36,226 nucleotides of DNA from Burkholderiales bacterium (lineage in GTDB: Bacteria; Pseudomonadota; Gammaproteobacteria; Burkholderiales; Burkholderiaceae_C). The stretch lies in the NCBI GenBank assembly GCA_016195825.1, contig JACPYV010000047.1, forward strand, positions 1 through 36,226, read 5' to 3'. The notes under the pieces were generated by a model, which had not been told where the DNA came from, did not search any database, and worked only from the letters and a program-made list of their open reading frames with translations. Below, in pieces: positions 7,572 to 27,991 of the stretch; within the stretch, counting starts at the first letter, position 1, and every line of letters begins with the position of its first letter. Both the position numbers and the translations under genes were made by a program.

Positions 7572-8386
<815 letters not shown>

Positions 8387-8390
<4 letters not shown>

Positions 8391-9283: not shown

Positions 9284-10554
9284 CAGCGGTTGGCGCGGTG
9301 AACCAGCAAGGCCTGCGCGTCGGCCAAGGCTTGCGGGATGGACTTACCGTACTCCAGCACGTTGTCCAACTCGGCGTTGACGACCTCGTCGGCGAACTTG
9401 TGCTGCTTGTGCATGCGCACAGCGGGGATGCGCCGCGCGGCGTCGCGCCACAGCTGGCGAGCCTTCTGGCCGCCCAGGAAGGGCACCGGCTGGTCGAAGA
9501 AGTCGCCCTCCTGCGCGGCCAGCAGGGCCGGGAATGCATCCTGCGACTTGAAGGCCTCCAGCTGGCGCTGGCGCTCCAGCGTCAGCTCCTGGATCAGCTG
9601 CCAGGCGAGCTGCTTCTTTTCCGGTGCTGAGCGACGCGGGATGGCGTAGTAGGTGCCACCGTAGGAGCAGTAGGCGTTCTCGGGCAACTGGGCCACGCGC
9701 CATTTGCCCGCGGTGCCGGGCGCCACCCAGTTGGCCATCTGGCCGGCCATCCAGCAGCCCGACATCTCGGTGGCCAGTCGCCCGCGTTTGAGCATCTCGG
9801 CCCAGTCGTTGAACCAGACCTCCACCTTCGCGTCCAGCCCATGGCGGCGCACCTTCTGCGCCAGCTCGAAGGCCCGAACGAAGCGCGGCGACGTGATCTG
9901 CGCCCGACCCTGGTTGTCGAAGAATTGGCCCTCGCCCGGCGGCGTGCCTGCGCGCACGATGATGTCCTTGAGCAGCCGCACGTCGCCAATCAGGTAGGCC
10001 CCGGTCCGGCCCTTGAGCTGGGCGCCCGCCTCGACGTAGTCCTCCCAGGAACGCGTCAGGTCGGCTTCCTTCAGGCCGGCCTGGGCCAGCAGGTCGGTGC
10101 GGTAGAACAGCGCACCCGGGCCGATGTCGGTGGGCATCGCAACCACACGACCTTCGCGGTTGCGGGCCGTCTCGAAGGCGAAGGACACGAAGCGGTCCTT
10201 GAAACGCTCGGCGCCGAAGGCCGGGGCCGACATATCCTCCAGGCCGGTACCCAGCGAGAAGCGGCCCAGGTAGCTGGCCTCCAGTGCGATGACGTCAGGC
10301 AGGTGGCCGGAGGTGGACAGCGCCGTCGTCATGGCCGTGTGGTGGTCGTCGTACTGACGGCTGATGACCTGGGCGCGGATCTCGGGGTGGCGCTCGCTCC
10401 AGCCCTTGAGCACGTCCTTGGCGATGACGTCGACCAGCGGAAAGGCGGCCACAGTCAGCGGCTGCGGCGCCTCCTTGGCGCGCACCAGCCCGGCCGCGCC
10501 GCCGAGGGCGGCCGCAAGCAGGTGACGGCGGGGGAGGGAATGGGTGTCTGGCAT
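9283..10554 (-). CDS. Extracellular sugar-binding protein of the ABC importer
   Basis: A 423-residue family-1 solute-binding protein. The N-terminus (SLPRRHLLAAALGGAAGLVRA) is a signal peptide with a twin-arginine-like pair, so Tat export is possible. Binding-protein hallmarks include HPEIRAQVISRQYDDH, LPDVIALEASYLGRF, VAMPTDIGPGALFYRTDLL and GTYYAIPRRS. It is the first gene of the importer/GH1/GH16 operon. I see no ordinary Shine-Dalgarno sequence: the 16-base palindrome TTGAAAGCGCTTTCAA occupies 4-19 bases before the ATG, exactly where one would be. A bound repressor would cover the translation start, and translation may begin on a poorly defined site. The ligand is inferred to be a beta-glucan oligosaccharide from the neighbouring enzymes. 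Confidence 0.9.
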   Translation of the reverse strand: MPDTHSLPRRHLLAAALGGAAGLVRAKEAPQPLTVAAFPLVDVIAKDVLKGWSERHPEIRAQVISRQYDDHHTAMTTALSTSGHLPDVIALEASYLGRFSLGTGLEDMSAPAFGAERFKDRFVSFAFETARNREGRVVAMPTDIGPGALFYRTDLLAQAGLKEADLTRSWEDYVEAGAQLKGRTGAYLIGDVRLLKDIIVRAGTPPGEGQFFDNQGRAQITSPRFVRAFELAQKVRRHGLDAKVEVWFNDWAEMLKRGRLATEMSGCWMAGQMANWVAPGTAGKWRVAQLPENAYCSYGGTYYAIPRRSAPEKKQLAWQLIQELTLERQRQLEAFKSQDAFPALLAAQEGDFFDQPVPFLGGQKARQLWRDAARRIPAVRMHKQHKFADEVVNAELDNVLEYGKSIPQALADAQALLVHRANR

Positions 10555-10557: not shown

Positions 10558-10573
10558 TTGAAAGCGCTTTCAA
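10558..10573. promoter_or_regulatory. LacI-type operator, perfect 16-base palindrome
   Basis: The sequence TTGAAAGCGCTTTCAA is perfectly palindromic with the central CG typical of LacI-family sites. It ends three bases before the ATG of the binding-protein gene read on the minus strand. The same sequence occurs at 14519-14534 and close variants at 19501, 19686 and 19712. The LacI-family gene at 18287 is the likely source of the regulator (inference). Confidence 0.85.
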
Positions 10574-10877: not shown

Positions 10878-12611
10878 ATGAAGCAGCCCTCGTCCGGCAT
10901 CCCGGTGCATCAACTGCGCCGCCTCGCCGTCATCACCGCCGCCGCGTTCGCGCTCAGTGCCGGCGCCCAGACCTACCCCGCCTGGGCCCCCGACGTTTAC
11001 TACGCGGCCGGCACGGTGGTGACCTATAACGGTCACAACTACCGCGCCCTGGTCAACCAGACCGACTATTCGTCCACCGGCTGGAACCCGACCAACGCGT
11101 CGCTGTGGACCGATCTCGGCACAACCTCCGGCCCTCCGCCATCACCGGCACCCACGCCCGCTCCGACACCCGCTCCGACACCCGCACCCACCCCGGCCCC
11201 CACCCCTGCACCCACGCCCGCCCCCGCACCCAGCGGCAGCTGCGCACCCGTGTGGGTGGCCGCCACCGCCTACAGCGGCGGCGCCATCGCCAGCAAGGGC
11301 ACCACCAACTACAAGGCCAACTGGTGGACCCAGGGCAACGACCCCGCCACCAACAACGGACCCACCGGAAGCGGCCAGCCCTGGACCTCACAGGGCGCCT
11401 GCACCACCGGTCCGGCACCCAGCCCGGGCCCTGCACCTGGCCCCGCCCCGGCGCCTGGCCCCGGCCCGGCACCCTCGCCTGCCCCGGCACCGGGCCTCAG
11501 CGACCCGGCGGCCAAGTCGGCCACGCAGGCCGGCCGCGCCTACACCGTCTACTACCCGAGCTGGAGCGACAACTGGTTCGATGCCACCGGCAAGACCATG
11601 AACCAGGTCTTCCAGGCCAGCAACTTGGCGCGCATCCCGGCCAATTACACCCACGTGGTGGCCGCGTTCGCGCAGCCCAACTTCGCCTGGGGCGGCATGG
11701 CGGCCAACAACTGGTCGGGCACTGGCATCAATTTCAACGGCCGACCGTCGGACATCAAGGCCGCCATCGACGTGCTGCACGCCCGCAACATCAAGGTCGT
11801 GCTGGCCGTGGGTGGCGCCACCTACAACAGCTGGAGCACGCTGTCGGCCGAAGGCCATGCGGGCAGCGGCCCGACGATCACGGCGCTGGCCAACGTGATG
11901 ACAGACGTGGGCTTCGACGGCCTGGATGTGGACTTCGAGATCGAAGGCCTGGACGCCTACGCCGGCGCCGTGAAGGCGATGCGCAAGGCCGTGGACCTGG
12001 CCGGCGGCGGGCGCATCCTGACGGTGGCCGCCTGGTCCACCGGCGCGGACTGCACCGGGGCGACGGCCAACGACGCGCAGTGCGCGGGCGTGGGCACCAG
12101 CTACTGGGGCGGCAAGGCAGGGCTGGAGCGTCAGCTCGTCAACAGCTACCCGGCGCTGAAGACCGCGTTCAACATCGTGAACATCATGAGCTACGACGCG
12201 CGCTTCGAGCACTACGACGGTGTGACCGCCTGGAAGCAGTACCGCCAGCTGTTCCCGGCCAGCACCATCGTGTCCATTGGTTTCGAGACGGCCCCCGAGG
12301 GCTGGGCCGGCGGGCAGTTGGTGGTGAACAACGCCGACGCGCAGTGCACGGGCTCCGTGATCCTGCAGAACAGCTACGGCGCCAACATCAACCAGGCCTA
12401 CTCGGTGGAGCGCTACCTGAATGCGGTGACGACCAGCACGCTGGCCAACAAAAACCCGCGTGACGGCGCCATGCTGTGGCAGGCACTGAAGACGGCGAGC
12501 GGCAGCTGCGGCAGCGCACCGCTGGCCTCACCCGGCTCCATCGGCGTCAAGGCCGCCAGCAGCCTGGGCCTGGTGAACGACCCGGCGCTGCAGAACGCAC
12601 CCTGGAAGTAA
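10878..12611 (+). CDS. Secreted GH18 chitinase with two chitin-binding modules
   Basis: A 577-residue protein starting at ATG 10878, with a signal peptide ending near ALSAGAQ31. Order of parts: a CBM5/12-like module (about 32-78; YPAWAPDVYYAAGTVVTYNG), a Pro-Thr-Ala linker, a second module of the same class (about 117-168; WVAATAYSGGAIASKG, then WWTQGNDP), a Pro-Gly-Ala linker, and a GH18 barrel (about 215-560). The catalytic motif is DGLDVDFE with Glu354 as the acid; Phe replaces the common Trp before it (DxDWE), and KVVLAVGGATY is the SxGG-like strand. It hydrolyses chitin outside the cell. The N-terminal 435-bp block from 10968 is nearly the same as in the next chitinase, while the catalytic domains are unrelated at sub-family level. 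Confidence 0.93.
   Translation: MKQPSSGIPVHQLRRLAVITAAAFALSAGAQTYPAWAPDVYYAAGTVVTYNGHNYRALVNQTDYSSTGWNPTNASLWTDLGTTSGPPPSPAPTPAPTPAPTPAPTPAPTPAPTPAPAPSGSCAPVWVAATAYSGGAIASKGTTNYKANWWTQGNDPATNNGPTGSGQPWTSQGACTTGPAPSPGPAPGPAPAPGPGPAPSPAPAPGLSDPAAKSATQAGRAYTVYYPSWSDNWFDATGKTMNQVFQASNLARIPANYTHVVAAFAQPNFAWGGMAANNWSGTGINFNGRPSDIKAAIDVLHARNIKVVLAVGGATYNSWSTLSAEGHAGSGPTITALANVMTDVGFDGLDVDFEIEGLDAYAGAVKAMRKAVDLAGGGRILTVAAWSTGADCTGATANDAQCAGVGTSYWGGKAGLERQLVNSYPALKTAFNIVNIMSYDARFEHYDGVTAWKQYRQLFPASTIVSIGFETAPEGWAGGQLVVNNADAQCTGSVILQNSYGANINQAYSVERYLNAVTTSTLANKNPRDGAMLWQALKTASGSCGSAPLASPGSIGVKAASSLGLVNDPALQNAPWK
10968..11402 (+). repeat. Chitin-binding module/linker block, copy 1 (435 bp)
   Basis: From the codon for the last signal-peptide Gln to the Cys codon after the second binding module, this block matches 12783-13217. 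Both copies are exactly 435 bases with scattered, mostly third-position differences (roughly nine in ten bases agree by eye). It encodes module, Pro/Ala/Thr linker and module. Confidence 0.9.
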
Positions 12612-12686: not shown

Positions 12687-14288
12687 ATGATTTCGCGCCC
12701 ACCTTTGCCGCGCGCGGCCAACCCGTGGCTTGTTGCCACGCTGACCGCCGGCGCCCTGCTGCTGGCCACCCCTGCGTTCGCGCAGACCTACCCCGCCTGG
12801 GCCCCCGACGTGTACTACACGGCCGGCACGGTCGTGACCTACAACGGCCGCATCTACCGCGCCACCGTCAACCAGACCGACTATTCATCCACCGGCTGGA
12901 ACCCGACCAACGCGTCGCTGTGGACTGATCTCGGCGCAACCTCTGGCCCTGCGCCATCCCCGGCACCCACGCCCGCTCCGACACCCGCACCCACCCCGGC
13001 CCCCACCCCGGCCCCGGCCCCTGCACCCACGCCCGCCCCCGCACCCAGCGGCAGCTGCGCACCCGTGTGGCTGGCCGCCACTGCCTACAGCGGCGGCGCC
13101 ATCGCCAGCAAGGGCACCACCAACTACAAGGCCAACTGGTGGACTCAGGGCAACGACCCCGCCACCAGCAACGGACCCAGCGGAAGCGGTCAGCCCTGGA
13201 CCTCGCAAGGCGCCTGCGGCAACGCGCCAAGCCCGTCGCCCGCACCTTCGCCCAGCCCCGCGCCGAGCCCGGCCCCCAGCCCGTCACCAGCGCCCTCGCC
13301 CAGCCCGAGCCCGGCACCCTCGCCCTCGCCCGGTAAGCACCAGCTCATCGGCTACTGGCACAACTTCACCAACCCGAGCGGCTCGAGCTTCCCCATCAGC
13401 GAGGTCTCCGCGGACTACGACGTCATCGTGGTCGCCTTCGCCGATGACGGCGGCAACGGTGCCATCAGCTTCAACCTCGACTCGGGCTCCGGCGGCGAGG
13501 CGCGTTTTATCGCCGATGTGGCCGCGGCCCGCGCGAAGGGCAAGAAAGTGGTGCTGTCCTTCGGCGGCCAGAACGGCACGGTGACGCTGAACAACGCGAC
13601 GCAGGTGACCAACTTCGTCAACAGCGTCGAGGCCATCCTGCGCAAGTACGGCTTCGACGGCATCGACATCGACCTGGAGAGCGGCGCGGGCGTCACGGCC
13701 GGCGCGCCCGTGGTGGCCAACCTGGTCGCGGCGGTCAAGCAGCTGAAGTCCCGCATCGGCAGCGGCTTTTACCTGTCGATGGCGCCGGAGCACCCGTACG
13801 TGCAGGGCGGCTATGTCGCCAGCAGCGGCATCTGGGGCGCCTACCTGCCCATCATCGACGGGCTGCGCGACGAGCTCTCGGTGCTGCACGTCCAGTACTA
13901 CAACAACGGCGCGGTCTACACGCCCTACTCGACTCAGGGACTCGCCGAGGGCAGCGTCGACATGCTGGTGGCTGCCAGCCGCATGCTGATCGAGGGCTTC
14001 ACGACCAACAACGGCACCGGGCCCTACGTGTTCCGCGGCATCCGGCCCGACCAGATTGCGTTCGGGCTGCCGTCCGGGCCGTCGTCCGCCAACAGCGGCC
14101 AGGCCAGCCTCGCCAACATCACGGCGGCGCTGAACTGCCTGACCAAGCTGACCCAGTGCGGCGCGATCAAGCCCCCGGTGGCCTACCCGACGCTGAAGGG
14201 GGTGATGACCTGGTCCATCAACTGGGACCGGAAGGACGGCCTGGCGTTCTCGCGCGGCGTGCGTGCGGCGCTGAACGCCTTGCCCTGA
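12687..14288 (+). CDS. Secreted GH18 chitinase with two chitin-binding modules (second, different catalytic type)
   Basis: A 533-residue protein. The ATG at 12687 has GGAG six bases upstream, which favours it over a TTG at 12675. The signal peptide ends near ATPAFAQ33. Two CBM5/12-like modules and a Pro/Ala/Thr linker, nearly identical to those of the preceding chitinase, lead through a Ser-Pro-Ala linker to a GH18 barrel (about 215-530). Its catalytic motif is DGIDIDLE with Glu331, with KVVLSFGGQNG, FYLSMAPEH and GVMTWSINWD as typical strands. This catalytic domain resembles the Streptomyces ChiC/Bacillus ChiD-like GH18 group rather than that of the first chitinase. The pair probably attacks chitin in complementary ways (inference). 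Both enzymes should be extracellular. Confidence 0.94.
   Translation: MISRPPLPRAANPWLVATLTAGALLLATPAFAQTYPAWAPDVYYTAGTVVTYNGRIYRATVNQTDYSSTGWNPTNASLWTDLGATSGPAPSPAPTPAPTPAPTPAPTPAPAPAPTPAPAPSGSCAPVWLAATAYSGGAIASKGTTNYKANWWTQGNDPATSNGPSGSGQPWTSQGACGNAPSPSPAPSPSPAPSPAPSPSPAPSPSPSPAPSPSPGKHQLIGYWHNFTNPSGSSFPISEVSADYDVIVVAFADDGGNGAISFNLDSGSGGEARFIADVAAARAKGKKVVLSFGGQNGTVTLNNATQVTNFVNSVEAILRKYGFDGIDIDLESGAGVTAGAPVVANLVAAVKQLKSRIGSGFYLSMAPEHPYVQGGYVASSGIWGAYLPIIDGLRDELSVLHVQYYNNGAVYTPYSTQGLAEGSVDMLVAASRMLIEGFTTNNGTGPYVFRGIRPDQIAFGLPSGPSSANSGQASLANITAALNCLTKLTQCGAIKPPVAYPTLKGVMTWSINWDRKDGLAFSRGVRAALNALP
12783..13217 (+). repeat. Chitin-binding module/linker block, copy 2 (435 bp)
   Basis: Second copy of the block at 10968-11402, same length and same order of module, linker and module. 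Conservation stops abruptly after the Cys codon at 13217, where the two genes enter different linkers and different GH18 domains. Confidence 0.9.
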
Positions 14289-14518: not shown

Positions 14519-14534
14519 TTGAAAGCGCTTTCAA
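14519..14534. promoter_or_regulatory. LacI-type operator, perfect 16-base palindrome
   Basis: TTGAAAGCGCTTTCAA, identical to 10558-10573, lies 48 bases before the ATG of the secreted GH16 gene. It probably places that gene under the same LacI-family repressor. Confidence 0.85.
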
Positions 14535-14582: not shown

Positions 14583-16001
14583 ATGAAACTGCTTCGATTC
14601 CTCATCCGGCCCATGTTGGGCGTGCTTCTGCTGGCAGCCACCGGCCTCACCCATGCCCAGGGCTGGCAGCTCATCTGGAGCGACGAGTTCAACGGCAGCA
14701 TCGGCCCGAACTGGGTCTTCGAGACCGGCGCCGGCGGCTGGGGCAACAACGAGCTGCAGTACTACCGCCGCGAGAACGCCACCATCGAGAACGGTGCCCT
14801 GGTCATCACTGCCAAGCGCGAGGACTTCGGCGGCATGGCCTACACCTCGGCGCGCATGAAAACGCAAGGGCTGAAGACCTTCAAGTACGGCCGCATGGAA
14901 GCGCGCATGAAGCTGCCCGCCTTCCTGGGCGCCTGGCCGGCGTTCTGGATGCTGGGCGCCAACCTGCCGCAGGTGGGCTGGCCGGCTTCCGGCGAGATCG
15001 ACGTGATGGAGCACATCAACGACGAGCAAAAGGTTTACGGCACCATCCACTGGCAGGACAACAACGGCCAGTACGCCCAGTACGGCGGCAACCTCGCCAC
15101 CACCGTGACCGACTGGCACGTCTACGCCGTGGAGTGGGACACCAATGCCATCCGCTGGTACGTGGACGGCACCAAGTACCACGAGGCCAATATCGCCAAC
15201 GGCGTCAACGGCACCGATGAATTCCAGAAGGACTTCTTCCTGCTGCTGAACTTCGCCGTCGGCGGCAACTGGCCGGGCTTCAACGTCAACACCGCCGCCC
15301 TGCCCGCCAAGATGTACGTGGACTACGTGCGCGTGTACGCGCCGGCCACCGGCGGGGTGGCCACGGTCTACCAGGACTGCAACTACGCCGGCTACGCGGC
15401 CGCCCTGCCCGAGGGCAGCTACACCCTGGCGCAGTTGCAGGCCCGCGGCGTGCGGGACAACGACTTGTCCTCGCTGCGCGTGAATGCCGGCTACCAAGTG
15501 CAGCTGTTCGATGGCGACAACTTCAGCGGCGCCAGCGTCGTGCGCACCGCCGACACCGGCTGCCTCGTGGACCAGGCCTTCAACGACCGGACCACGTCCC
15601 TCGTCGTGTCCAAAGTGGCGCCCGCCTGGTCGCGCCAGATCGAGGCCGAGTCGTATAGCACGATGGCGGGCGTGCAGACCGAGGCCTGCACTGAGGGCGG
15701 CCTGAACGTGGGCTACATCGATACCGGCGACTGGATGGCCTACAACAGCGTCAGCTTCCCGACGAGCGGCACCTACCGCGTCGAGTACCGCGTGGCCAGC
15801 ACCGCCGGCGGCACGCTGTCGCTGGACCTCAACGCCGGCAGCATCCAGCTCGGCCAGCTGGGCGTGCCCAACACCGGCGGCTGGCAGAATTGGACGACGG
15901 TCTCGCACACGGTGACCATCAATGCCGGCACCTACAACGTCGGCGTGTACGCGCAGCAGGGCGGGTGGAACATCAACTGGATCAAGTTCACCAAGCTCTG
16001 A
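14583..16001 (+). CDS. Secreted GH16 beta-glucanase with beta/gamma-crystallin-like and CBM6 domains
   Basis: A 472-residue protein. The ATG at 14583 has GGAG six bases upstream and a signal peptide ending at THAQ. The GH16 domain (about residues 25-255) carries E138-I-D-V-M-E143, plus WSDEFNG, GAWPAFWMLG and MYVDYVRVY. Next, about residues 260-345, is a segment with the rhythm of a beta/gamma-crystallin domain (VYQDCNYAGYAAALPEGSYT, then QLFDGDNFSGASVV and DRTTSLVV). The last 130 residues resemble CBM6 (IEAESYSTMAGVQTE, DTGDWMAYNSV, WNINWIKF). It should degrade beta-1,3-glucans outside the cell. It is monocistronic: a LacI-type operator precedes it and a strong terminator follows. Confidence 0.92.
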   Translation: MKLLRFLIRPMLGVLLLAATGLTHAQGWQLIWSDEFNGSIGPNWVFETGAGGWGNNELQYYRRENATIENGALVITAKREDFGGMAYTSARMKTQGLKTFKYGRMEARMKLPAFLGAWPAFWMLGANLPQVGWPASGEIDVMEHINDEQKVYGTIHWQDNNGQYAQYGGNLATTVTDWHVYAVEWDTNAIRWYVDGTKYHEANIANGVNGTDEFQKDFFLLLNFAVGGNWPGFNVNTAALPAKMYVDYVRVYAPATGGVATVYQDCNYAGYAAALPEGSYTLAQLQARGVRDNDLSSLRVNAGYQVQLFDGDNFSGASVVRTADTGCLVDQAFNDRTTSLVVSKVAPAWSRQIEAESYSTMAGVQTEACTEGGLNVGYIDTGDWMAYNSVSFPTSGTYRVEYRVASTAGGTLSLDLNAGSIQLGQLGVPNTGGWQNWTTVSHTVTINAGTYNVGVYAQQGGWNINWIKFTKL

Positions 16002-18286: not shown

Positions 18287-19345
18287 ATGTCGACCAAGTC
18301 ACCCGTTCCACCCGCCGCCAGGAAAGCGCCGTCAAGCCGCCCGGACGGCGTCGTCACGCTGGAACAGGTGGCCGAGATGGCCGGCGTGTCGCCCAGCACG
18401 GTGTCACGCATCCTTAACGGCACGGCCGCCGTCAGTCAGGTCAAGAAAGACGCGGTGCAAGCCGCAATCCGCGAGCTGGGCTTCAGGCCCAACCCGGTGG
18501 CGCGCGGCCTGGCCGGCGGGCGCACTCTCTCGGTCGGCGTCGTCACGCAGATCATCTCCAGCCCCTTCTACGGCGAGGCGCTGCTGGGCATCGAGCGCGA
18601 GCTGGAGCGGGCCGGCTACGTCCCGCTGTTCGTCAGCGGCAACTGGCACGAGGACGACGAGCGCAAGGCCATCGAGACATTGTTGTCACGCCGGGTCGAC
18701 GGCATCATCGTGCTGGCCGGGCGGCTGGCCGACGAGGTACTGCTGAGCCTGACCGAAGGCCTGCCCACGGTGGTCGTGGGCCGCCAGCTGGACCGGCCGC
18801 AGCTCTACAGCTTCAGCTTTGACAACCGCCTGGGCGCCCGGCTGGCCACGCAGCACCTCATCGACCAGGGCCACCGCCGCATCGCATTCATTGCGGGCGA
18901 CCTGGTGCACGACGACGCCGTCGAGCGCCAGAACGGCTACCTCGATGCACTGGCCGCGGCCGGTATCCCGTTCGACGCCAACCTCGTCGTGCAGAGCGAC
19001 TTCACCGAGGCCGGCGGCATGCTGGCCGTCAGCCGCCTGCTGGAGCGCGACTCGCACTTCACGGCCCTGTTCGCCTCCAACGATCAGATGGCCATCGGCG
19101 CCTGCCTGGGCCTGCACCGGCGCAACCTGCGCGTGCCCGACGACGTCTCCCTGGTCGGCTTCGACGACCTCATCATGGCCCGCTACTCGATGCCACCGCT
19201 GACCACCGTGCGCCAGTCGGTCTACGAGATCGGCAGCGAGGCGGCCACGGCCATGCTGGACCTGCTGCGCGGCGGCAGCCCGCGCGTTCAGCTGCCCCAG
19301 CCTGAGCTGGTCGTGCGCGAGAGCACGCGCCGCATGGCGCGCTGA
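18287..19345 (+). CDS. LacI-family transcriptional regulator
   Basis: A 352-residue repressor. I chose ATG 18287; the frame is open upstream only because it crosses the SnoaL-like gene in another frame. No clear Shine-Dalgarno sequence precedes it. The N-terminal DNA-binding helix-turn-helix is VTLEQVAEMAGVSPSTVSRI (residues 23-42) with hinge region FRPNPVARGLAGG. The rest is a sugar-binding core (LSVGVVTQIISSPFYGEALLG, RRVDGIIVLAG, FASNDQMAIGACLGLH, VSLVGFDDLIMARYSMPPLTTV). It probably binds the TTGAAAGCGCTTTCAA sites at 10558, 14519, 19501 and 19712 and responds to a glucan- or chitin-derived sugar (inference). A weak half-site (GCGCTTTCAG near 18207) lies 70 bases upstream. Confidence 0.94.
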   Translation: MSTKSPVPPAARKAPSSRPDGVVTLEQVAEMAGVSPSTVSRILNGTAAVSQVKKDAVQAAIRELGFRPNPVARGLAGGRTLSVGVVTQIISSPFYGEALLGIERELERAGYVPLFVSGNWHEDDERKAIETLLSRRVDGIIVLAGRLADEVLLSLTEGLPTVVVGRQLDRPQLYSFSFDNRLGARLATQHLIDQGHRRIAFIAGDLVHDDAVERQNGYLDALAAAGIPFDANLVVQSDFTEAGGMLAVSRLLERDSHFTALFASNDQMAIGACLGLHRRNLRVPDDVSLVGFDDLIMARYSMPPLTTVRQSVYEIGSEAATAMLDLLRGGSPRVQLPQPELVVRESTRRMAR

Positions 19346-19500: not shown

Positions 19501-19516
19501 TTGAAAGCGCTTTCAG
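19501..19516. promoter_or_regulatory. LacI-type operator, distal site upstream of the TonB receptor
   Basis: TTGAAAGCGCTTTCAG: the inner 14 bases are a perfect palindrome. It lies 260 bases before the receptor ATG. A degenerate relative, TTCAACGCTTTTCAA, is at 19529-19543. Its centre is 211 bases from the centre of the site at 19712, close to a whole number of helical turns. Confidence 0.8.
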
Positions 19517-19685: not shown

Positions 19686-19712
19686 TTGAAAGCGCTGCCA
19701 ATCACGTATTCT
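19686..19712 (+). promoter_or_regulatory. Degenerate LacI-type operator and candidate -35/-10 promoter of the TonB receptor
   Basis: TTGAAAGCGCTGCCAA (19686-19701) keeps the left half of the operator, but the right half has two changes. Its TTGAAA could serve as a -35 element with TATTCT at 19707-19712 as the -10 (spacer 15, a little short). If so, this site and the one at 19712 both overlap the promoter, suiting repression. The rest of the 431-base gap (19346-19776) holds a short GC hairpin (CCGGCCG/CGGCCGG, 19385-19402) and nothing else recognised. Confidence 0.45.
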
Positions 19713-19727
19713 TGAAAGCGCTTTCAG
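19712..19727. promoter_or_regulatory. LacI-type operator, proximal site upstream of the TonB receptor
   Basis: TTGAAAGCGCTTTCAG, with a 14-base perfect palindromic core at 19713-19726, 49 bases before the receptor ATG. It is centred 26 bases from the degenerate site at 19686-19701. Confidence 0.82.
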
Positions 19728-19776: not shown

Positions 19777-22700
19777 ATGAGACAGCTACGCCCTGCCCTT
19801 CGCCTCACAACCCTCGCTGCCGCCAGCGGCCTGCTGTTCACCGGCGCCGCGGCGCTGGCCCAAGGCGGCCCCGGTCAGGGCCCCGTGAACCCCAACGCCG
19901 GACCCACGCCGTCCACCTCGGTGCCGCAGGCGCTGGCCAGCACCACGCAGCTGGAAACGGTCATCGTGACCGGCATTCGCAAGTCTCTGGAAACTTCGGT
20001 AAACCTGAAGCGCTCGTCGTCCGGCCTGGTGGACGGCATCGTCGCGGAAGACATCGGCAAGTTCCCCGACACCAACCTGGCTGAATCGCTGAGCCGCATC
20101 AGCGGCGTGTCCATCGACCGCGCCAACGGCGAAGGCACGCGCATCACCGTGCGCGGCATGGGCCCCGACTTCAACCTGGTGCTGCTCAACGGCCGCCAGA
20201 TGCCCGGCGCCAGCCTGGACGGCAGCGCCCCCAGCTCGCGCTCGTTCGACTTCTCCAACCTCGCCTCCGACGGTGTGGCCGCGTTGGAGGTCTACAAGAC
20301 CAGCCGCGCCAGCAGCCCCACCGGCGGCATGGGCGCCACCATCAATGTGCGCACCCAGCGCCCGTTCGACATCAAGGAAACCGTCGCCAGCGTCGGCGTG
20401 AAGATGGTGAGCGACCAGTCCGCCCGCCGCCTGCCCGGCGAGGAGAAGGGCAAGAACGCCACGCCCGAACTGAGCGGCATCTACAGCACCCAGACCAATG
20501 ACGGCACCTTCGGCATCGCGCTGATGGGCACTTACCAGGTGCGCGATTCCGGCTACTCCCAGGCCAACGTCAGCAGCGGCTGGAAGAGCTTCACCGGCAA
20601 CATCGACAACCAGGACTGGGCCGGCGGCAACGCTGCCTGGGGCGGCCTGCCGCCCGCGAGCCCGACAGGCGAGATCAAGAACCGCCCGGCCAAGGACTCC
20701 ATCTACAGCGTGCCGCAGAACCTGAACTACTCGTTCACCGGCGTGCACCGCGAGCGCCTGAACGGCCAGTTGGTGCTGCAGTTCAAGCCGATGAAGGACC
20801 TGGTCGGCACGCTGGACTTCGTCATGTCGGAGCAGAAGTTCCGCCAGCGCCGCAACGACATCTCCGCCTGGTTCAACTACGGCGGCCAGTTCGGCGAATA
20901 CCAGACCGGCTCACCGTCCTCGCCCATCATCTACGGCGAGCACATGACCAACTCCGACCTGGCCATGGGCGCGTCGCGCATCCAGACCAAGAACAAGAAC
21001 CAGCAGCTCGGCCTGAACCTGAAGTGGAAGGCCACCGACGCGCTGAACTTTGACTTCGACATCCACCACTCCACCGCCACCTCGGGTGCCAACGACCCGC
21101 TGGGCACCGCCGTGACGCTGGGTACCGCCTCGCTGAACCGCGGCGACACCTTCGTGGACTTCAGCAACAAGTTCCCGGTGCTGGGCATCAAGGGTGCGAC
21201 GCTGGACCCGACCTTGCAGGAGCTGCAGGGCTCGGTTTTCGGCAACAGCTACCAGAAGAACGAGGTCAACCAGCTGCAGACCAAGGGCAACTGGAAAATC
21301 GACGCGGACAGCAGCCTGGACTTCGGCCTGACCCTGACCGACGTCAAGAACCGCTCGGCCTTCGCCAACGTCCAGCGCGACACCTGGGGCGGTGGCGCAG
21401 CCGGCGGCCCTGCCGCGATGCCGGACGACATCTGGAAGGCCGACTCCATCAGCAAGTACTTCAGCCGCATCCCGGGCTCCAGCGACCCGCGCCTGTTCAA
21501 CCAGTTCTTCTACTTCAACTTCGAAGACCTGCGTGCCGCGGCCATCAAGGCCCTGGGGTCGGACAACCTGCTGAAGGCCTCGTTCAACTTCACGGACGAC
21601 TACCGCACGACGGAAAAGTCGCAAGCCCTCTACGGCCAGTACAACCTGGCCTGGGAATGGGGCGTGCCGATGGACCTGTCCGCAGGCCTGCGGTACGAGC
21701 GCACCAAGGTGCAATCGCCCAGCGTCGAGTCCGTGCCGGGCACCGTGCGCTGGGTTTCTGCCAACGAAATTCCCATCACCTTCAACGGCACCACCAACGC
21801 CTCGCGCGGTGGCAAGTACAGCTATGCACTGCCCTCCATCGACTGGAGTGCCGACCTCAGCTCCGACGTGAAAGTGCGCGCCAGCTACGGCAAGACCATC
21901 GGTCGCCCGGGCTGGAACGCCATCCAGGGTGGCCGCACGCTGAATGGCCTGGCGCGCATCGACGGCGGCTCGGGCGCGGTCGGCAACCCCGACCTGAAGC
22001 CGTTGCAGTCGACCAACCTGGACTTCTCGGCCGAGTACTACTACGCCAAGAGCAGCTACGTGGCCGCCAGCTACTTCCGCAAGTCGCTCAAGGACTACAA
22101 CGAAGCCATCATCTCCCCGCAGACCATCCCGGGCATCACGACACCGATCGGTGGTGCGTACTTCCAAAAGGCCGTACAGGTCGGCAAATGCTCGGCCAAC
22201 GACTCCGGCTGCATCCGTGATTACATCTTTGCCAACTTCGCCGGCCAGCCGGGTGTGGACGCGGCCGCCAAGACGATCACGGCTCAGCCGAGCGATCCGC
22301 TGCTGGTGTTCCAGTTGGGCACGTACCAGAACAACCAGCGCACCAGCAAGCTCAACGGCATCGAGCTGAACGCCCAGCACATCTTCGGCAACACGGGCTT
22401 CGGCGTGTCGGCCAACTTCACCAAGGTGAAGTCCAACCTGAGCTACGACAACAACAAGGTCGGTGCACAGACCGACGTGCTGGTGGGCCTGGGCGACTCC
22501 GGCAACCTGGTGGGCTTCTACGAGAACGAGACCTACTCGGCGCGCCTGGCCTACAACTGGCGTGGCAAGTTCCTGGCCGCCAACTTTGGGGGCACGGACG
22601 GTGCACAGCCGCTGTATGTGGAACCCTTCGGCCAGCTGGATGTGAGCCTGGGCTACAACTACAACGCGCACCTGCGCTTCCAGTTGGAGGCCATCAACCT

Positions 22701-22803
22701 GACAGACGAGTACACGCGCACGCATCTGCGCAACGAAAACCAGATCGGTGCTGTCACCCAACTGGGCCGTCGCTTCATGATCGGTGCGCGCTACCGGTTC
22801 TAA
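19777..22803 (+). CDS. TonB-dependent outer-membrane receptor (large carbohydrate type)
   Basis: A 1008-residue receptor with a signal peptide (about 1-29) and CTGGAG ahead of the ATG. A TonB box (E60-T-V-I-V-T-G66) is followed by the plug domain (DGIVAEDIGKFPDTNLAESLSRISGVSI, ITVRGMGPDFNLVLLNGRQMPG) and a long beta-barrel ending in FMIGARYRF, with the terminal aromatic residue of outer-membrane proteins. Plug wording and size match the Xanthomonas/Caulobacter-type receptors used for polysaccharide fragments. Three LacI-type sites precede it, so it is probably induced by the same sugar signal as the glucanases. The halogenase operon follows after a terminator-like element. The cargo is inferred to be a chitin or beta-glucan oligosaccharide. 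Confidence 0.95.
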   Translation: MRQLRPALRLTTLAAASGLLFTGAAALAQGGPGQGPVNPNAGPTPSTSVPQALASTTQLETVIVTGIRKSLETSVNLKRSSSGLVDGIVAEDIGKFPDTNLAESLSRISGVSIDRANGEGTRITVRGMGPDFNLVLLNGRQMPGASLDGSAPSSRSFDFSNLASDGVAALEVYKTSRASSPTGGMGATINVRTQRPFDIKETVASVGVKMVSDQSARRLPGEEKGKNATPELSGIYSTQTNDGTFGIALMGTYQVRDSGYSQANVSSGWKSFTGNIDNQDWAGGNAAWGGLPPASPTGEIKNRPAKDSIYSVPQNLNYSFTGVHRERLNGQLVLQFKPMKDLVGTLDFVMSEQKFRQRRNDISAWFNYGGQFGEYQTGSPSSPIIYGEHMTNSDLAMGASRIQTKNKNQQLGLNLKWKATDALNFDFDIHHSTATSGANDPLGTAVTLGTASLNRGDTFVDFSNKFPVLGIKGATLDPTLQELQGSVFGNSYQKNEVNQLQTKGNWKIDADSSLDFGLTLTDVKNRSAFANVQRDTWGGGAAGGPAAMPDDIWKADSISKYFSRIPGSSDPRLFNQFFYFNFEDLRAAAIKALGSDNLLKASFNFTDDYRTTEKSQALYGQYNLAWEWGVPMDLSAGLRYERTKVQSPSVESVPGTVRWVSANEIPITFNGTTNASRGGKYSYALPSIDWSADLSSDVKVRASYGKTIGRPGWNAIQGGRTLNGLARIDGGSGAVGNPDLKPLQSTNLDFSAEYYYAKSSYVAASYFRKSLKDYNEAIISPQTIPGITTPIGGAYFQKAVQVGKCSANDSGCIRDYIFANFAGQPGVDAAAKTITAQPSDPLLVFQLGTYQNNQRTSKLNGIELNAQHIFGNTGFGVSANFTKVKSNLSYDNNKVGAQTDVLVGLGDSGNLVGFYENETYSARLAYNWRGKFLAANFGGTDGAQPLYVEPFGQLDVSLGYNYNAHLRFQLEAINLTDEYTRTHLRNENQIGAVTQLGRRFMIGARYRF

Positions 22804-22922: not shown

Positions 22923-22958
22923 TCGCCGCTTGGCGAGGCCGCGCGAGCGGCCCTTTTT
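22923..22958 (+). terminator. Terminator or attenuator just before the halogenase operon
   Basis: Two adjoining hairpins, TCGCC-GCTT-GGCGA (22923-22936) and GGCCGC-GCGA-GCGGCC (22937-22952), are followed by CTTTTT. The second has a GNRA loop. A competing pairing, GCCGCT (22925-22930) with AGCGGC (22946-22951), is also possible. The halogenase TTG start is 18 bases further on. No promoter is evident in between, so the operon probably depends on readthrough from the receptor gene. Confidence 0.65.
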
Positions 22959-22976: not shown

Positions 22977-24521
22977 TTGAACGACAGGCTGCGTGACGTG
23001 GTGGTGCTGGGCGGGGGCTCGGCAGGCTGGCTGGTCGCCGGGCTGCTGGCCGCTGAACATGCCGAACTGAAGATCACCCTCATCGAATCCAGCGACGTCC
23101 CGACCATCGGCGTCGGCGAGGGCACCTGGCCGTCCATGCGCGACACGCTGCGCCGCATCGGCCTTGCCGAGCCCGAGTTCATTCGCCGCTGCCAGGTCTC
23201 GTTCAAGCAGGGTTCGCGCTTCGACGGCTGGGCCCGCGGCGGCGCCGGCGCTGAGGGCGACCGCTACTACCACCCCTTCATGCTGCCCGTCGGCTACGGT
23301 GACGTGGACCTGGTGCTGCCCTGGCTGGCCACCCAGGGCACGCGGCCGTTTGCCGACGTCGTCAGCCCCTCCGTGCAGGTGTGCGAAGCCGGCCGCGCAC
23401 CCAAGCAGGCGCAGACGCCCGAGTTCGCTGCCGTCGCCAATTACGCCTATCACTTCGATGCCGGCCTCTTCGGCCAGCTGCTGCGCGAGCATGCGGTCGC
23501 CAAGCTCGGCGTCCGGCACGTCATCGACCATGTCGACGCCGTCGTGTCGCACCCGGACGGCGAACGCGGCGGCGACATTGCCGCGCTGCAGACCCGTGAG
23601 CATGGCGAGTTGAAGGCCGACCTGTTCATCGACTGCTCCGGTCTCACAGCACGCCTCATCGGCCAGCACTTCGGCGTGCCCATGAAGAGCGAGCGCGACG
23701 TCCTATTCAACGATGCCGCCCTGCCTGTGCAGGTGCCCTATGCCCAGGCCGATGCACCGCTGGCCTCGGTCACCGTTGCCACCGCCTGGGCCAAAGGCTG
23801 GATCTGGGACATCGGCCTGCCGGCCCGGCGCGGCGTTGGCTGCGTCTACTCGCGTGCTCACGCCAGCGACGACGAGGCCCACGCGGCGCTGCAGGCCTAT
23901 CTCGATGCCACCGGCGCGCCGCCCGAGCGCCCCGCGCCGCGCACCATCCGCTACGACCCCGGCTACCGCCAGCAGTTCTGGGTGCGCAACTGCGTCGCCA
24001 TCGGCCTGTCCTCGGGCTTCATCGAGCCGCTGGAGGCCTCGGCCCTCGCCATGGTCGAGCTGTCTGCCCAGCGGCTGTGCGACGAGCTGCCCATGACGCG
24101 CGCCTCCATGGACGCCGTCGCGCGCCGCTTCAACGACGACTTCGGCTACCGCTGGGCCCGTGTCATCGACTTCCTGAAGCTGCACTACGCGCTCAGCCAA
24201 CGCGACGACAGCGACTACTGGCGCGCCCACCGCGACCCCGCCACCTGGCCCGAGCGCCTGCGCGAGCTGCTGCCGCAGTGGCGCCTGCGCGCGCCGGCCC
24301 GCCACGACTTCGGCCGCATCGACGAGGTCTTCCCGTCGGCCAGCTACCAGTACGTGCTTTACGGCATGGGTTTTCGCCCTGACGCACAGCCCCTGTCCAC
24401 CACCAAACTACAGGCCGCCCAGGCCGCCTTCGACGAGGCCGCGCGCCAGGCCCGCCGCTTCGTGCCCGGCCTGCCCGGCCATCGCAGCCTGATCGACCAC
24501 ATCAGAAAAAACGAGACATGA
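22977..24521 (+). CDS. Flavin-dependent halogenase of the tryptophan-halogenase family, divergent copy
   Basis: A 514-residue protein starting with TTG at 22977; GGGGAC six bases upstream supports this, and a later start would cut into the FAD-binding strand. The FAD motif is VVVLGGGSAGWLVAGLLA. Lys77 in VSFKQGSRFDGW sits where the family's catalytic lysine (Lys79 of PrnA) is expected, and Glu353 in GFIEPLEAS where its catalytic glutamate lies. The WxWxIP halogenase motif reads W275-I-W277-D-I-G-L-P, and the chloride-site segment E-S-T-G of PrnA becomes E-A-S-A. These changes suggest an unusual substrate, or a non-halogenating monooxygenase. A reduced-flavin supplier is not encoded nearby. 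The stop overlaps the SapC-like start in an ATGA. Confidence 0.85.
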   Translation: MNDRLRDVVVLGGGSAGWLVAGLLAAEHAELKITLIESSDVPTIGVGEGTWPSMRDTLRRIGLAEPEFIRRCQVSFKQGSRFDGWARGGAGAEGDRYYHPFMLPVGYGDVDLVLPWLATQGTRPFADVVSPSVQVCEAGRAPKQAQTPEFAAVANYAYHFDAGLFGQLLREHAVAKLGVRHVIDHVDAVVSHPDGERGGDIAALQTREHGELKADLFIDCSGLTARLIGQHFGVPMKSERDVLFNDAALPVQVPYAQADAPLASVTVATAWAKGWIWDIGLPARRGVGCVYSRAHASDDEAHAALQAYLDATGAPPERPAPRTIRYDPGYRQQFWVRNCVAIGLSSGFIEPLEASALAMVELSAQRLCDELPMTRASMDAVARRFNDDFGYRWARVIDFLKLHYALSQRDDSDYWRAHRDPATWPERLRELLPQWRLRAPARHDFGRIDEVFPSASYQYVLYGMGFRPDAQPLSTTKLQAAQAAFDEAARQARRFVPGLPGHRSLIDHIRKNET

Positions 24522-25234
24522 ATCCCGCCTTGCTCGACAACATCACCCACCGCCATCTGCGCGTCCGCAGCGAGCGCTCTGCCGCCCTGGGAGACGCCCG
24601 TCAGTCGGCCCTGGCCCTGCCGGCCGAGTTCCGCCAGTTGCAGGCCCATTTCCCCATCGCCTTCCAACTGGTGGAAGGCGACGCCGCCAACGCCGGCTTT
24701 CAGCCCGTCGCCCTGTTCGGCCTGGAGGAAGGGCAGAACCTCTTCCTGACCGACACAGGCTGGGACGCCCCCGTCGTGCCCATGGCTCTGCAGCGGGACC
24801 CCTTCATGATCGGCCGCGCCCCTGACGACAGCTTGCAGCTGCACATCGACATGGACAGCCCGCGCATCGTGAGGCCCGAGGAGGGCGAGGTCGGCACCGC
24901 CATCTTCATGCCGCACGGCGGCTTCAGCGACTACCTGGATCATGTCGTGCAGCTGATGGAGCATCTGCACGCCCAGGCCCAACAGCTGCCGGTCTTCATC
25001 GAGGCGCTGACCCGCCACCAGCTGCTGGAGCCCTTCGTCATCGACATCGAGATGGCCGGCGGCGAACAGGGCCGGCTGTCGGGCCTCTTCACCATCCACG
25101 AGGAGCGCCTGGCCGCCCTGCCCGGCGCCGCGCTGGAAGCCCTGGCGCGCGAGGGCCATCTGCTGCCCATCTACATGCAGATCGCTTCGCTGGCCCAGTT
25201 GCCCGTTCTCGTCGAGCGAGCCAGCCGCCGTTGA
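24518..25234 (+). CDS. SapC-like protein
   Basis: A 238-residue soluble protein with the SapC-family pattern: an N-terminal HRHLRVRSERSAALGDARQS, the conserved ALPAEFRQLQAHFPIAFQL, then GLEEGQNLFLTDTGWDAPVVPMALQRDPFMIG. Family members are of unknown biochemical role; the name comes from an S-layer-associated gene of Campylobacter. From memory, such genes often accompany TonB receptors and tryptophan-type halogenases in Caulobacter and Xanthomonas. No signal peptide is visible, so it is probably cytoplasmic. Its start overlaps the halogenase stop by four bases, and the cupin gene begins nine bases later. Confidence 0.8.
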   Translation: MNPALLDNITHRHLRVRSERSAALGDARQSALALPAEFRQLQAHFPIAFQLVEGDAANAGFQPVALFGLEEGQNLFLTDTGWDAPVVPMALQRDPFMIGRAPDDSLQLHIDMDSPRIVRPEEGEVGTAIFMPHGGFSDYLDHVVQLMEHLHAQAQQLPVFIEALTRHQLLEPFVIDIEMAGGEQGRLSGLFTIHEERLAALPGAALEALAREGHLLPIYMQIASLAQLPVLVERASRR

Positions 25235-25242
25235 GCTGAACC

Positions 25243-26250
25243 ATGCGTGCAGTACCCGCCTGGACCGGGGCGTTTGACCCCAACGACCTGCCCGCCGAGC
25301 TGCTGGCGGCCGACCGGCCCTACGTCGTGCGGGGCGGCTTCGCCCACTGGCCGGTCGTGCGGGCGGCACGCCAGTCCGACGAGGCCCTGGCCCGCCATCT
25401 GATGGGCTTCTACAACGGTATCCGGATCGGTCTATTCCAACTGGCACCCGAGGCCCGCGGCCGGGTCTTCTACGCCGACGAGACCCTGCGCGACTTCAAC
25501 TTCAGCCGCCATGCCGCCACGCTGGACCAGGTGCTGACCGGCCTGCTGGGCCTGGCCGCGGCACCCGAGCCGCCGGCCCTCTACGTCGGCTCGACCACCG
25601 TCGAGGCCGTGCTGCCCGGCTTCCTCGACGTCAATGCCCTGGGCCTGGGCCAGCGCGACGCCCTTGTCAGTCTGTGGCTGGGCAACCGCACCCGCATCGC
25701 CGCCCACTACGACCTGCCTGACAACCTCGCCGTCGTGGCCGCCGGCCGGCGGCGCTTCACGGTCTTCCCGCCCGAACAGATCCACAACCTCTACATGGGC
25801 CCGCTGGACCCGACACCGGCGGGCCAGCCCGTCAGCCTGGTCGATTTCGAAACACCTGACTTCGAGCGCTTCCCGCGCTTTCGGCAGGCGCTAGACGCTG
25901 GCGAGGTGGCCGAGCTGGAACCCGGCGACGCCATCTTCATCCCCAGCATGTGGTTCCACCACATCGAGGGGCTGGCGCCGGTCAACCTGCTCATCAACGC
26001 CTGGTGGCGCCAGACACCCGAGTACGTCGACTCGCCGCTGAGCGCGCTGCACCTCGCACTGATGACCATGCGCAACCTTCCCGATAAAGAGCGCCGCATC
26101 TGGCAGCACCATTTCCAACATTTCGTCTTCGATGCCGATGCCAGCACCTGGGAACACATTCCCGAGGCCGCACGCGGCTTGCTGGAGGCCGCCGACGAAA
26201 CCACCTCGCGCCAGGCCCGCGCGCAACTCCTGAGTCAACTCAAACGATGA
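25243..26250 (+). CDS. Cupin-8/JmjC-like putative iron(II)/2-oxoglutarate oxygenase
   Basis: A 335-residue protein of the cupin-like/JmjC-like group. Metal-binding residues are visible: H155-Y-D157 in AAHYDLPDNLAVVAAGRRRFTVF, and His239 or His240 in PSMWFHHIEGL. The preceding PGDAIFIPS and later LLINAWWR are typical. Related enzymes hydroxylate proteins or small molecules; this one might act on the same substrate as the halogenases or on a protein (inference). The stop overlaps the start of the second halogenase in an ATGA. There is no signal peptide. Confidence 0.82.
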   Translation: MRAVPAWTGAFDPNDLPAELLAADRPYVVRGGFAHWPVVRAARQSDEALARHLMGFYNGIRIGLFQLAPEARGRVFYADETLRDFNFSRHAATLDQVLTGLLGLAAAPEPPALYVGSTTVEAVLPGFLDVNALGLGQRDALVSLWLGNRTRIAAHYDLPDNLAVVAAGRRRFTVFPPEQIHNLYMGPLDPTPAGQPVSLVDFETPDFERFPRFRQALDAGEVAELEPGDAIFIPSMWFHHIEGLAPVNLLINAWWRQTPEYVDSPLSALHLALMTMRNLPDKERRIWQHHFQHFVFDADASTWEHIPEAARGLLEAADETTSRQARAQLLSQLKR

Positions 26251-27791
26251 ACACTTCCAACAAGCCCCCGCGCCGCGTCGTGATCGCCGGCGGCGGCACC
26301 GCCGGCTGGATGACGGCCGCCCTGATGGGCAAGCTGCTCGGCAAGCAGCTCGACATCAAGCTCATCGAGTCCGAGGAGATCGGCACCGTCGGCGTCGGCG
26401 AGGCCACCATCCCGGCCCTGCACACATATCACAACCTGCTCGGCATCAACGAGGCCGAGTTCATGGCCGCGACCAATGCGACCTTCAAGCTGGGCATCAA
26501 GTTCGAGGGCTGGAAGGACATCGGTCAGGACTACTTCCACTCCTTCGGCAGCACCGGCAACGACCACTGGAGCGCCGGCTTCCAGCACTTCTGGCTCAAG
26601 GGCCAGGCGGAAGGCCTCTCCAAGACCTACACCGACTACAACCCCGAGACGGTCGCCGCCTACGCCAACCGCTTCGCCCACCTGCCGCGCAACGGCCTGA
26701 ACTACGCCTACCACCTGGACGCCGGCCGCTACGCCAAATACCTGCGCGCGATGAGCGAGGGCTACGGTGTACAGCGTATCGAGGGCAAGATCGCCGCGGT
26801 GCTGATGGATGGCCCCGAGGGCCGCGACGGCGACATCACCGCGCTGCAGATGCAGGACGGCAGCCGCATCGACGGCGACCTGTTCATCGACTGCACGGGA
26901 TTTCGCGCCATGCTGATCGGTGAGGCCCTGGGCGTGGGCTACGAGGACTGGTCACACTGGCTGCCCTGCGACCGCGCCGTGGCCGTGCAGACGGCGTCGG
27001 TGCGCGAGGCCTGGCCCTATACCCGCTCCATCTGCCACCCCTTCGGCTGGCAGTGGCGCATCCCGCTGCAGCACCGCGTCGGCAACGGCCTGGTCTACAG
27101 CAGCAAGGAACTCAGTGATGCCGACGCGCCCGAGGTGATCAAGAACAACGTCGAGGGCGAGCTGCTGATCCAGCCGCGCGTCATCAAGTTCCTGCCCGGC
27201 CAGCGCCACAAGGTCTGGCATCGCAACTGCATCGCCGTGGGCCTGGCCAGCGGCTTCATCGAGCCGCTGGAATCCACCAGCATCCACCTCATCCAGCGCT
27301 CGGCCATCCGGCTGATGCAGCTCTTCCCGACCCGGGGCGTCAACCCGGCCGACGTGGACGAGTTCAACGCCCAGTGCGAGCGCGAGTTGACCCACATCCG
27401 CGACTTCATCATCCTGCATTACCACGTGACCGACCGCAGCGACTCCGCGCTGTGGAACCATGTGCGCACGATGGAAGTGCCCGCTACGCTCAGGCACCGC
27501 ATCGAGCTTTTCCGCGAAAGCGCCCGCGCCTTCCGCCCCAGCGACGAGCTGTTCGCCGAGAACTCCTGGATCCAGGTCATGATGGGCCAGGGCATCACGC
27601 CGCAGAGCTACCACCCGGTTGCCGACCTGATGGGCCCGGCCGAGCTGAACCAGTTCCTCGGCGACATCCATCTCAAGGTCTCGCGCACCGTGGCGGGCCT
27701 GCCCAGCCACCAGGCCTATGTCGAGCAGCTCTGCGCGCCGTATCGCAATGCGACGACGGCCCAGTTGGCGGCCACGCCGCTGCAGGCTTGA
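26247..27791 (+). CDS. Flavin-dependent halogenase of the tryptophan-halogenase family, canonical motifs
   Basis: A 514-residue protein. The FAD motif is VVIAGGGTAGWMTAALMG and the catalytic lysine is Lys81 in ATFKLGIKFEGW. The halogenase motif WxWxIP is intact (W268-Q-W270-R-I-P273), and Glu342 sits in FIEPLESTSIHL, close to the PrnA E-S-T-G segment. All active-site markers I can recall are present, so halogenation is credible. It is the last gene of the coupled operon halogenase, SapC-like, cupin, halogenase. Natural substrates of such receptor-linked halogenases are not settled; free tryptophan is not assured. Confidence 0.92.
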   Translation: MNTSNKPPRRVVIAGGGTAGWMTAALMGKLLGKQLDIKLIESEEIGTVGVGEATIPALHTYHNLLGINEAEFMAATNATFKLGIKFEGWKDIGQDYFHSFGSTGNDHWSAGFQHFWLKGQAEGLSKTYTDYNPETVAAYANRFAHLPRNGLNYAYHLDAGRYAKYLRAMSEGYGVQRIEGKIAAVLMDGPEGRDGDITALQMQDGSRIDGDLFIDCTGFRAMLIGEALGVGYEDWSHWLPCDRAVAVQTASVREAWPYTRSICHPFGWQWRIPLQHRVGNGLVYSSKELSDADAPEVIKNNVEGELLIQPRVIKFLPGQRHKVWHRNCIAVGLASGFIEPLESTSIHLIQRSAIRLMQLFPTRGVNPADVDEFNAQCERELTHIRDFIILHYHVTDRSDSALWNHVRTMEVPATLRHRIELFRESARAFRPSDELFAENSWIQVMMGQGITPQSYHPVADLMGPAELNQFLGDIHLKVSRTVAGLPSHQAYVEQLCAPYRNATTAQLAATPLQA

Positions 27792-27833: not shown

Positions 27834-27843
27834 TCTGCACATC

Positions 27844-27885: not shown

Positions 27886-27887
27886 AG

Positions 27888-27973: not shown

Positions 27974-27991
27974 TGATCCCTGAGTTCAACC

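Follow-up and report, generated by a model that had tools for sequence, protein, structure and literature searches.

Why would a bacterium keep two halogenases among genes predicted to serve the uptake and degradation of beta-glucan? The question is raised by a stretch of 36,226 nucleotides from a Burkholderiales bacterium (assembly GCA_016195825.1, contig JACPYV010000047.1), hereafter called the window, in which a gene for a TonB-dependent receptor (TBDT) is followed by four genes at positions 22977-27791, designated HalA, SapC, Cupin_8/JmjC and HalB. Our tentative answer is that this operon is a receptor-coupled module modifying a protein that is made along with the receptor, perhaps the receptor itself, and we prefer this answer over the production of a halogenated small molecule. 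The source genome (6.0 Mb in 207 contigs) has Pelomonas, Roseateles and Ideonella as its nearest named relatives, judged by HalA similarity. Genes were called with our own codon-usage caller, which found 27 genes in the window and missed some genes in related loci (e.g., in L104 and L105).

Organization and conservation of the cluster

The receptor gene and the four genes behind it are arranged as follows:

19777..22803, plus strand: TBDT of the TIGR01782 type (PF00593, PF07715; TIGR01782 with 604 bits against a cut-off of 310)
22937..22952, plus strand: terminator-like hairpin 5' of HalA, a possible attenuator (hairpin scan)
22977..24521, plus strand: HalA, flavin-dependent halogenase family (PF04820, 388 bits, cut-off 21; TTG start)
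24518..25234, plus strand: SapC family protein (PF07277, 202 bits)
25243..26250, plus strand: Cupin_8/JmjC oxygenase of the Fe(II)/2-oxoglutarate type (PF13621, 205 bits)
26247..27791, plus strand: HalB, flavin-dependent halogenase, Xcc4156-like (PF04820, 614 bits, cut-off 21)

The tight linkage of the four genes claimed in an initial annotation of this DNA is borne out by four-base ATGA overlaps at the HalA/SapC and Cupin/HalB junctions; the gap between SapC and the oxygenase gene measures 8 bases and not the nine given there. TBDT and HalA are 173 bases apart. Related loci were taken as the best 80 by HalA similarity in a scan of genome contigs, and in 60 of them gene calling recovered the full order TBDT, HalA, SapC, Cupin, HalB. 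The other 20 comprise contig ends, uncalled genes or variants, e.g., with the cupin missing. Because the gene caller missed genes, the true number is probably higher than 60/80. Both beta- and gammaproteobacteria retain the order. The source genome itself carries a complete paralog operon (locus L020, contig C157), in which HalB is fused to DUF6445 (L020:14019-16208). The same domain occurs as a separate gene beside two halogenases in another locus (L018:11014-11739) and may be a further partner.

The catalytic residues expected of two halogenases and a non-heme-iron oxygenase, as first proposed, are kept. The catalytic lysine (aligned to the FK motif of Xcc4156) is present as K77 in 80/80 HalA and as K81 in 69/69 HalB sequences. 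A W-x-W motif is found in all 80 HalA (W275xW277) and all 69 HalB proteins, and EPxE in all. WxWxIP is the motif of flavin-dependent halogenases of the tryptophan type; HalB has it in 68 of 69 cases (here WQWRIP), whereas the last place differs in HalA, which reads WxWxIG in 77 of 80 (here WIWDIG). Both proteins belong to the flavin-dependent halogenase family and are predicted to halogenate. The nearest solved relative of HalB is Xcc4156 (PDB 6Y1W, E 3e-210), with which it shares 60% identity, suggesting an open substrate site with short loops. In a FastTree phylogeny Xcc4156 shares a clade (support 1.0) with 73 of 78 operonic HalB proteins, and none of 45 other halogenases falls into it. HalA is closest to the solved structures 2PYX, 9LTB and 9LU2, shares the WIWDI and FKQG motifs with 2PYX, and matches the NCBIfam models of QhpG and LodB weakly (34 bits against a cut-off of 240 and 27.5 against 400). 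In the oxygenase, the triad H155, D157 and H239 is invariant in all 34 aligned sequences (34 of the 71 cupins collected), and the nearest solved structures are FIH (E 1e-20) and then JMJD5. Both are protein hydroxylases, and the Cupin_8/JmjC protein may likewise depend on 2-oxoglutarate and hydroxylate protein.

A search of the window alone for scaffold families, including nonribosomal peptide synthetases and polyketide synthases, gave none among the Pfam matches of its 27 genes, in keeping with the initial annotation. Neither were flavin-reductase or ring-cleavage families found among these matches, nor exporters or proteases of the type that serves ribosomally synthesized and post-translationally modified peptides (RiPPs).

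Pairing of halogenases with one receptor type

The partner that recurs beside the halogenases is the receptor. Halogenases and receptors were collected from five genomes of the genus, which are close kin, and counts over them are not independent. From 97 PF04820 rows we kept 72, excluding 25 short or FAD-only ones, and arrived at 71 halogenase entries since two pieces of one split gene were counted once. For the receptors, 101 rows lay above the TIGR01782 cut-off, and 34 listed rows below it were treated as other TBDTs, one per gene by judgement. A TIGR01782 TBDT lies within 5 kb of 53 of the 71 halogenase entries (3.4 expected) and within 10 kb of 58. Seen from the receptor side, 36 of the 101 TIGR01782 TBDTs have a halogenase within 5 kb, compared with 0 of the 34 other entries listed (1 within 10 kb; Fisher p 7e-6). 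Per genome there are 10 to 18 halogenase entries, and the number of different TBDTs paired in this way is 6 to 10; one common small product would not need such pairing. The source genome has 12 full-length halogenases and one that is split in two frames, located at L026:8808-10342 (contig C14, 11.7 kb), where real decay and assembly error are indistinguishable. On a FastTree phylogeny of the TBDTs, the halogenase-linked label changes 13 times, in a tree where long branches meet.

If the receptor were the target, its tryptophans would be candidate sites. An alignment of 99 TBDTs from the five genomes, of which 38 have a halogenase no more than 6 kb away and 61 have none, was scanned over five residue types and 1802 columns. 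The best column, W928, carries tryptophan in 25/38 linked and 9/61 unlinked receptors; for W537 the counts are 31/38 and 20/61. Among 69 HalA-linked TBDTs, W365 and W928 are invariant (69/69), and W269, W417 and W537 are present in 68, 68 and 67, respectively. W365, W537 and W928 probably sit on the outer rim of the barrel, as the strand pattern of a receptor model (mean pLDDT, the predicted local distance difference test, 83) indicates.

Operators and the link to polysaccharide loci

The window contains further genes of polysaccharide utilization and a set of palindromic sites:

5274..6185, minus strand: glycoside hydrolase of family GH16 (PF00722)
6220..7569, minus strand: GH1 beta-glucosidase (PF00232; TIGR03356 above cut-off)
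7572..10554, minus strand: sugar ABC transporter, two permeases and a binding protein (PF00528, PF13416)
10559..10572: operator-like palindrome between the ABC genes and GH18, exact
10878..12611, plus strand: GH18 with CBM5/12 (PF00704, PF02839)
12687..14288, plus strand: GH18 with CBM5/12 (PF00704, PF02839)
14520..14533: operator-like palindrome 5' of GH16, exact
14583..16001, plus strand: GH16 with CBM6 (PF00722, PF03422)
18287..19345, plus strand: LacI-family regulator adjoining the sites and likely their reader (PF00356/PF13377)
19502..19515: operator-like palindrome TGAAAGCGCTTTCA 5' of TBDT, exact, retained in close loci
19687..19700: degenerate copy of the palindrome with 2 mismatches
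19713..19726: operator-like palindrome TGAAAGCGCTTTCA 5' of TBDT, exact, retained in close loci

A GH39 gene also lies upstream of the cluster (Pfam). With a TBDT, glycosidases, a sugar transporter, a sugar-type regulator and common operators, the region has the composition of a TBDT-type carbohydrate utilization locus. The palindrome TGAAAGCGCTTTCA occurs exactly at 10559, 14520, 19502 and 19713, preceding the TBDT and nearby GH16, GH18 and sugar-ABC genes, and six sites are found in the window when up to 2 mismatches are allowed (0.05 expected). The sharing of operators between receptor and glucanase genes, seen already in the initial annotation, is supported, and the sites are shared with transport genes too. 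In the closest loci (L031-L038 and L103) it recurs in 9 of 9, each with a site (up to 1 mismatch at best) 5' of TBDT and another 5' of a glycoside hydrolase or substrate-binding protein gene. Genome-wide there are seven exact sites, four of them in the window. The others precede a GH64 beta-1,3-glucanase with CBM56 (L028, ~9825), a run of two PEP-CTERM proteins and a GH16-CBM56 protein (L027, ~10095), and a thioredoxin-like gene. Judged from these sites, the LacI regulon extends past the window. In the paralog operon the best match deviates at 2 positions and falls within the TBDT gene. Across 71 loci (the window and 70 with a called TBDT-HalA pair), a site with up to 2 mismatches is found within 500 bases of TBDT in 27 only, so distant relatives must be regulated otherwise. 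Terminator-like hairpins are present in 33 of the 71 TBDT-HalA gaps, compared with 2.6 in mononucleotide shuffles; over the whole region there is no excess (4 against 5.1). We infer partial read-through of the TBDT-HalA hairpin.

The initial annotation took the linkage to chitin and beta-glucan hydrolases as a clue to function, and a synteny survey upholds its beta-glucan half. GH16 lies within 12 kb of 15 of the 25 best HalA loci among the matches listed in 20 genomes of the genus, against 0.23 expected from random placement, an expectation that was computed for GH16 only. Of the ten loci lacking GH16, the five placed in the TBDT tree (G000 C157, G004 C1, G007 C12, G008 C4 and G009 C28) cluster there. 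In the 80 related loci, surveyed with 24 reference proteins, GH16 was found in 23, GH3 in 17, GH1 in 12, GH30 in 6, GH18 in 4 and LacI in 34; these counts are likely lower bounds. At least one of GH16, GH1, GH3 and GH30 is present in 41/80 loci, spanning Roseateles-, Massilia-, Lysobacter-, Steroidobacter-type and marine loci, and any reference-set glycosidase in 50/80; the remaining 30, several of which are short, have none within the available stretch. Chitin had to be abandoned as a general link, GH18 being confined to four loci that are all close relatives (L031, L032, L036 and L038). The paralog operon sits among haem genes, a two-component pair and the genes for phosphoenolpyruvate carboxylase and a di-haem peroxidase (CCP/MauG family), with no glycosidase among its scanned or BLASTed neighbours. 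A glucan locus is thus a frequent but not an obligatory setting of the operon, which is not a general fungal-wall system.

HalB-type genes are also found in other sugar loci, together with GH13, GH32 and DUF6445 (L018), GH13 and GH97 (L019), GH1, GH30 and ABC genes (L021), GH1, PfkB, a GH27 relative and LacI (L023), or GH31 (L026), and GH43 is likewise among the glycosidases of halogenase-accompanied loci. Since halogenases accompany loci with differing glycosidases, the common element is the receptor and not one sugar. As a separate observation, the di-haem peroxidase gene of the paralog locus (L020:3402-4619) lies three genes 5' of its TBDT, and a link to the system is conceivable; MauG oxidizes protein tryptophan, according to the accessible text of PMC7876137.

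Downstream of the cluster, a second group of genes on the minus strand (30216-36194) encodes a Spherulin4 protein with PEP-CTERM, a DUF4832/DUF4874 protein with a ricin-type lectin domain and an alpha-galactosidase with NPCBM. Two window genes (4647-5219 and 35010-36194) had no Pfam match. Between HalB and this group, the region 27843-28154 in front of a second-type EF-G gene (28154-30178) has the appearance of an attenuation-type leader. It comprises a 13-codon open reading frame (ORF) that is also found in L034, L036 and L037, a hairpin with a T-run (27934-27963) and a 35-codon ORF (27992-28099) with relatives in L032, L036 and L038.

SapC within and outside halogenase operons

SapC is not a partner of halogenases only. 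It was found in 45 of 120 genomes of the phylum, and PF04820 (E 1e-40) is present in 7 of the 44 SapC genomes other than the source genome. Among 20 regions examined around SapC, which was located by BLAST in 19, its neighbours include RTX proteins (L202, L210), outer-membrane efflux proteins (L201, L213), a TPS-type secreted protein (L205) and TBDTs (L204, L215), and also unrelated genes. These neighbourhoods appear to fit work on exported proteins only partly. The AlphaFold2 model of SapC has a mean pLDDT of 96. No solved relative was found by sequence; by Foldseek, the best PDB match has E 0.19 and the TM-scores of the top rows stay under 0.2, and no fold was assigned.

Two side observations concern the same protein. 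Outside halogenase operons (L201, L202, L205, L207, L210, L213 and L217), SapC adjoins RTX, TPS, DUF4214 or repeat proteins together with outer-membrane efflux or HlyD genes; to go by this company, SapC may have a general role for exported surface proteins. In L216 a SapC-like gene lies near the portal gene of a Mu-type phage (a match checked in this locus), and L199 has a similar neighbour.

Discussion

In the mechanism that we propose, glucan oligomers would relieve the LacI repressor, upon which the receptor would be made in quantity, and HalA, SapC, the oxygenase and HalB would follow at lower levels through read-through of the hairpin. None of these four proteins has a signal sequence by eye. 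They would act in the cytoplasm, halogenating and hydroxylating aromatic residues on a protein co-made with the receptor, with SapC as the putative substrate-binding part. The simplest target would be the receptor itself before export. Modification of a protein is the most economical explanation because the recurring partner is a TIGR01782 receptor, rather than a sugar, a scaffold gene or SapC, and because the enzymes have protein-like leanings. In its favour we count the grouping of HalB with Xcc4156, the likeness of the oxygenase to FIH and JMJD5, the weak QhpG/LodB matches of HalA and the invariant W365 and W928.

Several points weigh against this explanation. Modification of a Sec-exported barrel before export is unusual, and the QhpG/LodB matches stay far below their cut-offs. 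Co-inheritance of operon neighbours alone could maintain the pairing of TBDT and halogenase. No TIGR01782 TBDT lies within 10 kb of 13 of the 71 halogenase entries, 4 of the 13 being near contig ends or on contigs without such a TBDT. The enrichment of W928 and W537 loses significance in a kinship-aware pair test, from which three unlinked TBDTs at contig ends were excluded (~3:0 in 10 independent pairs, p 0.25; some pairings 2:1). A single receptor tryptophan is rejected as universal target, since this test is not significant and W928 is missing in 13/38 linked receptors; it is retained as a lead only. The invariant tryptophans may simply bind sugar. Finally, SapC usually occurs without halogenases and therefore says little about halogenation.

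The main rival is a halogenated and hydroxylated small molecule (siderophore-like, indole-derived or antifungal) that is imported by the receptor or acts on prey or rivals during fungal-wall feeding. TBDTs are generally known to import siderophores, and Iyer and colleagues reportedly read such clusters in this sense. In the accessible text of the structural papers, characterized relatives of the family mostly act on free tryptophan or indoles (PMC7336383) and both Xcc4156 and BrvH are active on free indole (PMC7336383; PMC5945002), but the activity of BrvH was so low that its authors doubted indole as the substrate (PMC5945002). The lack of scaffold and flavin-reductase families among the Pfam matches of the window also speaks against a small molecule, as do the TIGR01782 type of the receptor, with no other listed TBDT paired within 5 kb, and the number of halogenases per genome, standing beside 6 to 10 receptors. 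On balance we regard the small molecule as possible, and as less probable than modification of a protein made with the receptor.

A peptide target in the manner of RiPPs, with a ribosomal peptide encoded elsewhere or with peptides entering via the receptor, is improbable to us. Xcc4156 and BrvH have an open active site, for which peptides were proposed as possible substrates, and MibH chlorinates tryptophan only within its peptide, as far as the accessible passages of PMC5945002 and PMC7336383 go; the JmjC-type oxygenase would suit such a target too. Against it stand the 26% identity to MibH without close clustering (PMC7336383, in the same passages) and the absence of a RiPP-type exporter or protease among the Pfam matches of the window, and no conserved short ORF was noticed in the operon, where no systematic search for precursor peptides was made. 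A catabolic or detoxifying side path for an aromatic compound that arrives with the polysaccharide (a sugar-linked phenol or indole) is very improbable: an uptake receptor is nearby and flavoenzymes and an oxygenase are at hand, but ring-cleavage families are missing from the window's Pfam matches, quite different glycosidases lie beside halogenases, and halogenation would be an unusual catabolic step.

To return to modification of a protein made with the receptor, a group of crystallized halogenases without known native substrate is now tied to a conserved five-gene cluster and to one receptor type. Together with the beta-1,3-glucan regulon of the source genome, this tie suggests under which growth condition and in which genetic background to look, and it narrows the candidate targets to a few. 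Should the receptor indeed be the target, this would be a new kind of protein modification, that of outer-membrane transporters. The stricter idea that bacteria halogenate and hydroxylate their own sugar receptors, or a partner protein of these, with a dedicated enzyme set per receptor, the orphan halogenases of the BrvH/Xcc4156 type being the enzymes, is bolder, and we consider it rather unlikely as yet.

Comparison with known systems

The cluster is of a known, functionally orphan type that is said to have been in print since 2010. TBDT-halogenase-SapC-JmjC gene clusters with the same gene set were reportedly described by Iyer et al. in that year and taken to produce halogenated siderophores; linkage to a beta-glucan regulon is not known to be part of that account. 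The initial annotation had pointed to relatives in Caulobacter and Xanthomonas, and this fits: the genome of Caulobacter vibrioides has matches to PF04820, SapC and TIGR01782 (presence only), and the Xanthomonas protein Xcc4156 groups with HalB. Within titles, abstracts and passages, most subscription papers being outside reach, we found no paper that links tryptophan halogenases to loci for polysaccharides, a weak sign of novelty.

The Bgl locus of Shewanella (LamA, BglA, the TBDT omp-Bgl and BglR of the LacI type; PMC2996990, accessible text) is likewise a LacI-controlled beta-glucan locus with a TBDT. As a difference from the operon described here, the string "halogen" is absent from the main text of that paper. 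QhpG, which modifies protein tryptophan in the cytoplasm by hydroxylation for a quinone cofactor (PMC7876137, in the text accessible), and LodB belong to the same flavoprotein superfamily as HalA, but HalA scores far below the cut-offs of both. For 2PYX (a structural-genomics halogenase), 9LTB and 9LU2, the nearest solved relatives of HalA, no function was found in the literature searched. The closest counterparts are Xcc4156 of Xanthomonas campestris and BrvH (PDB 6FRL), the former through its identity to HalB and their common clade. According to the accessible portions of PMC7336383 and PMC5945002, both act on indole and not on free tryptophan, and their native substrates are unknown. To these enzymes the present operon adds a genomic setting and an operator held in common with glucanases.

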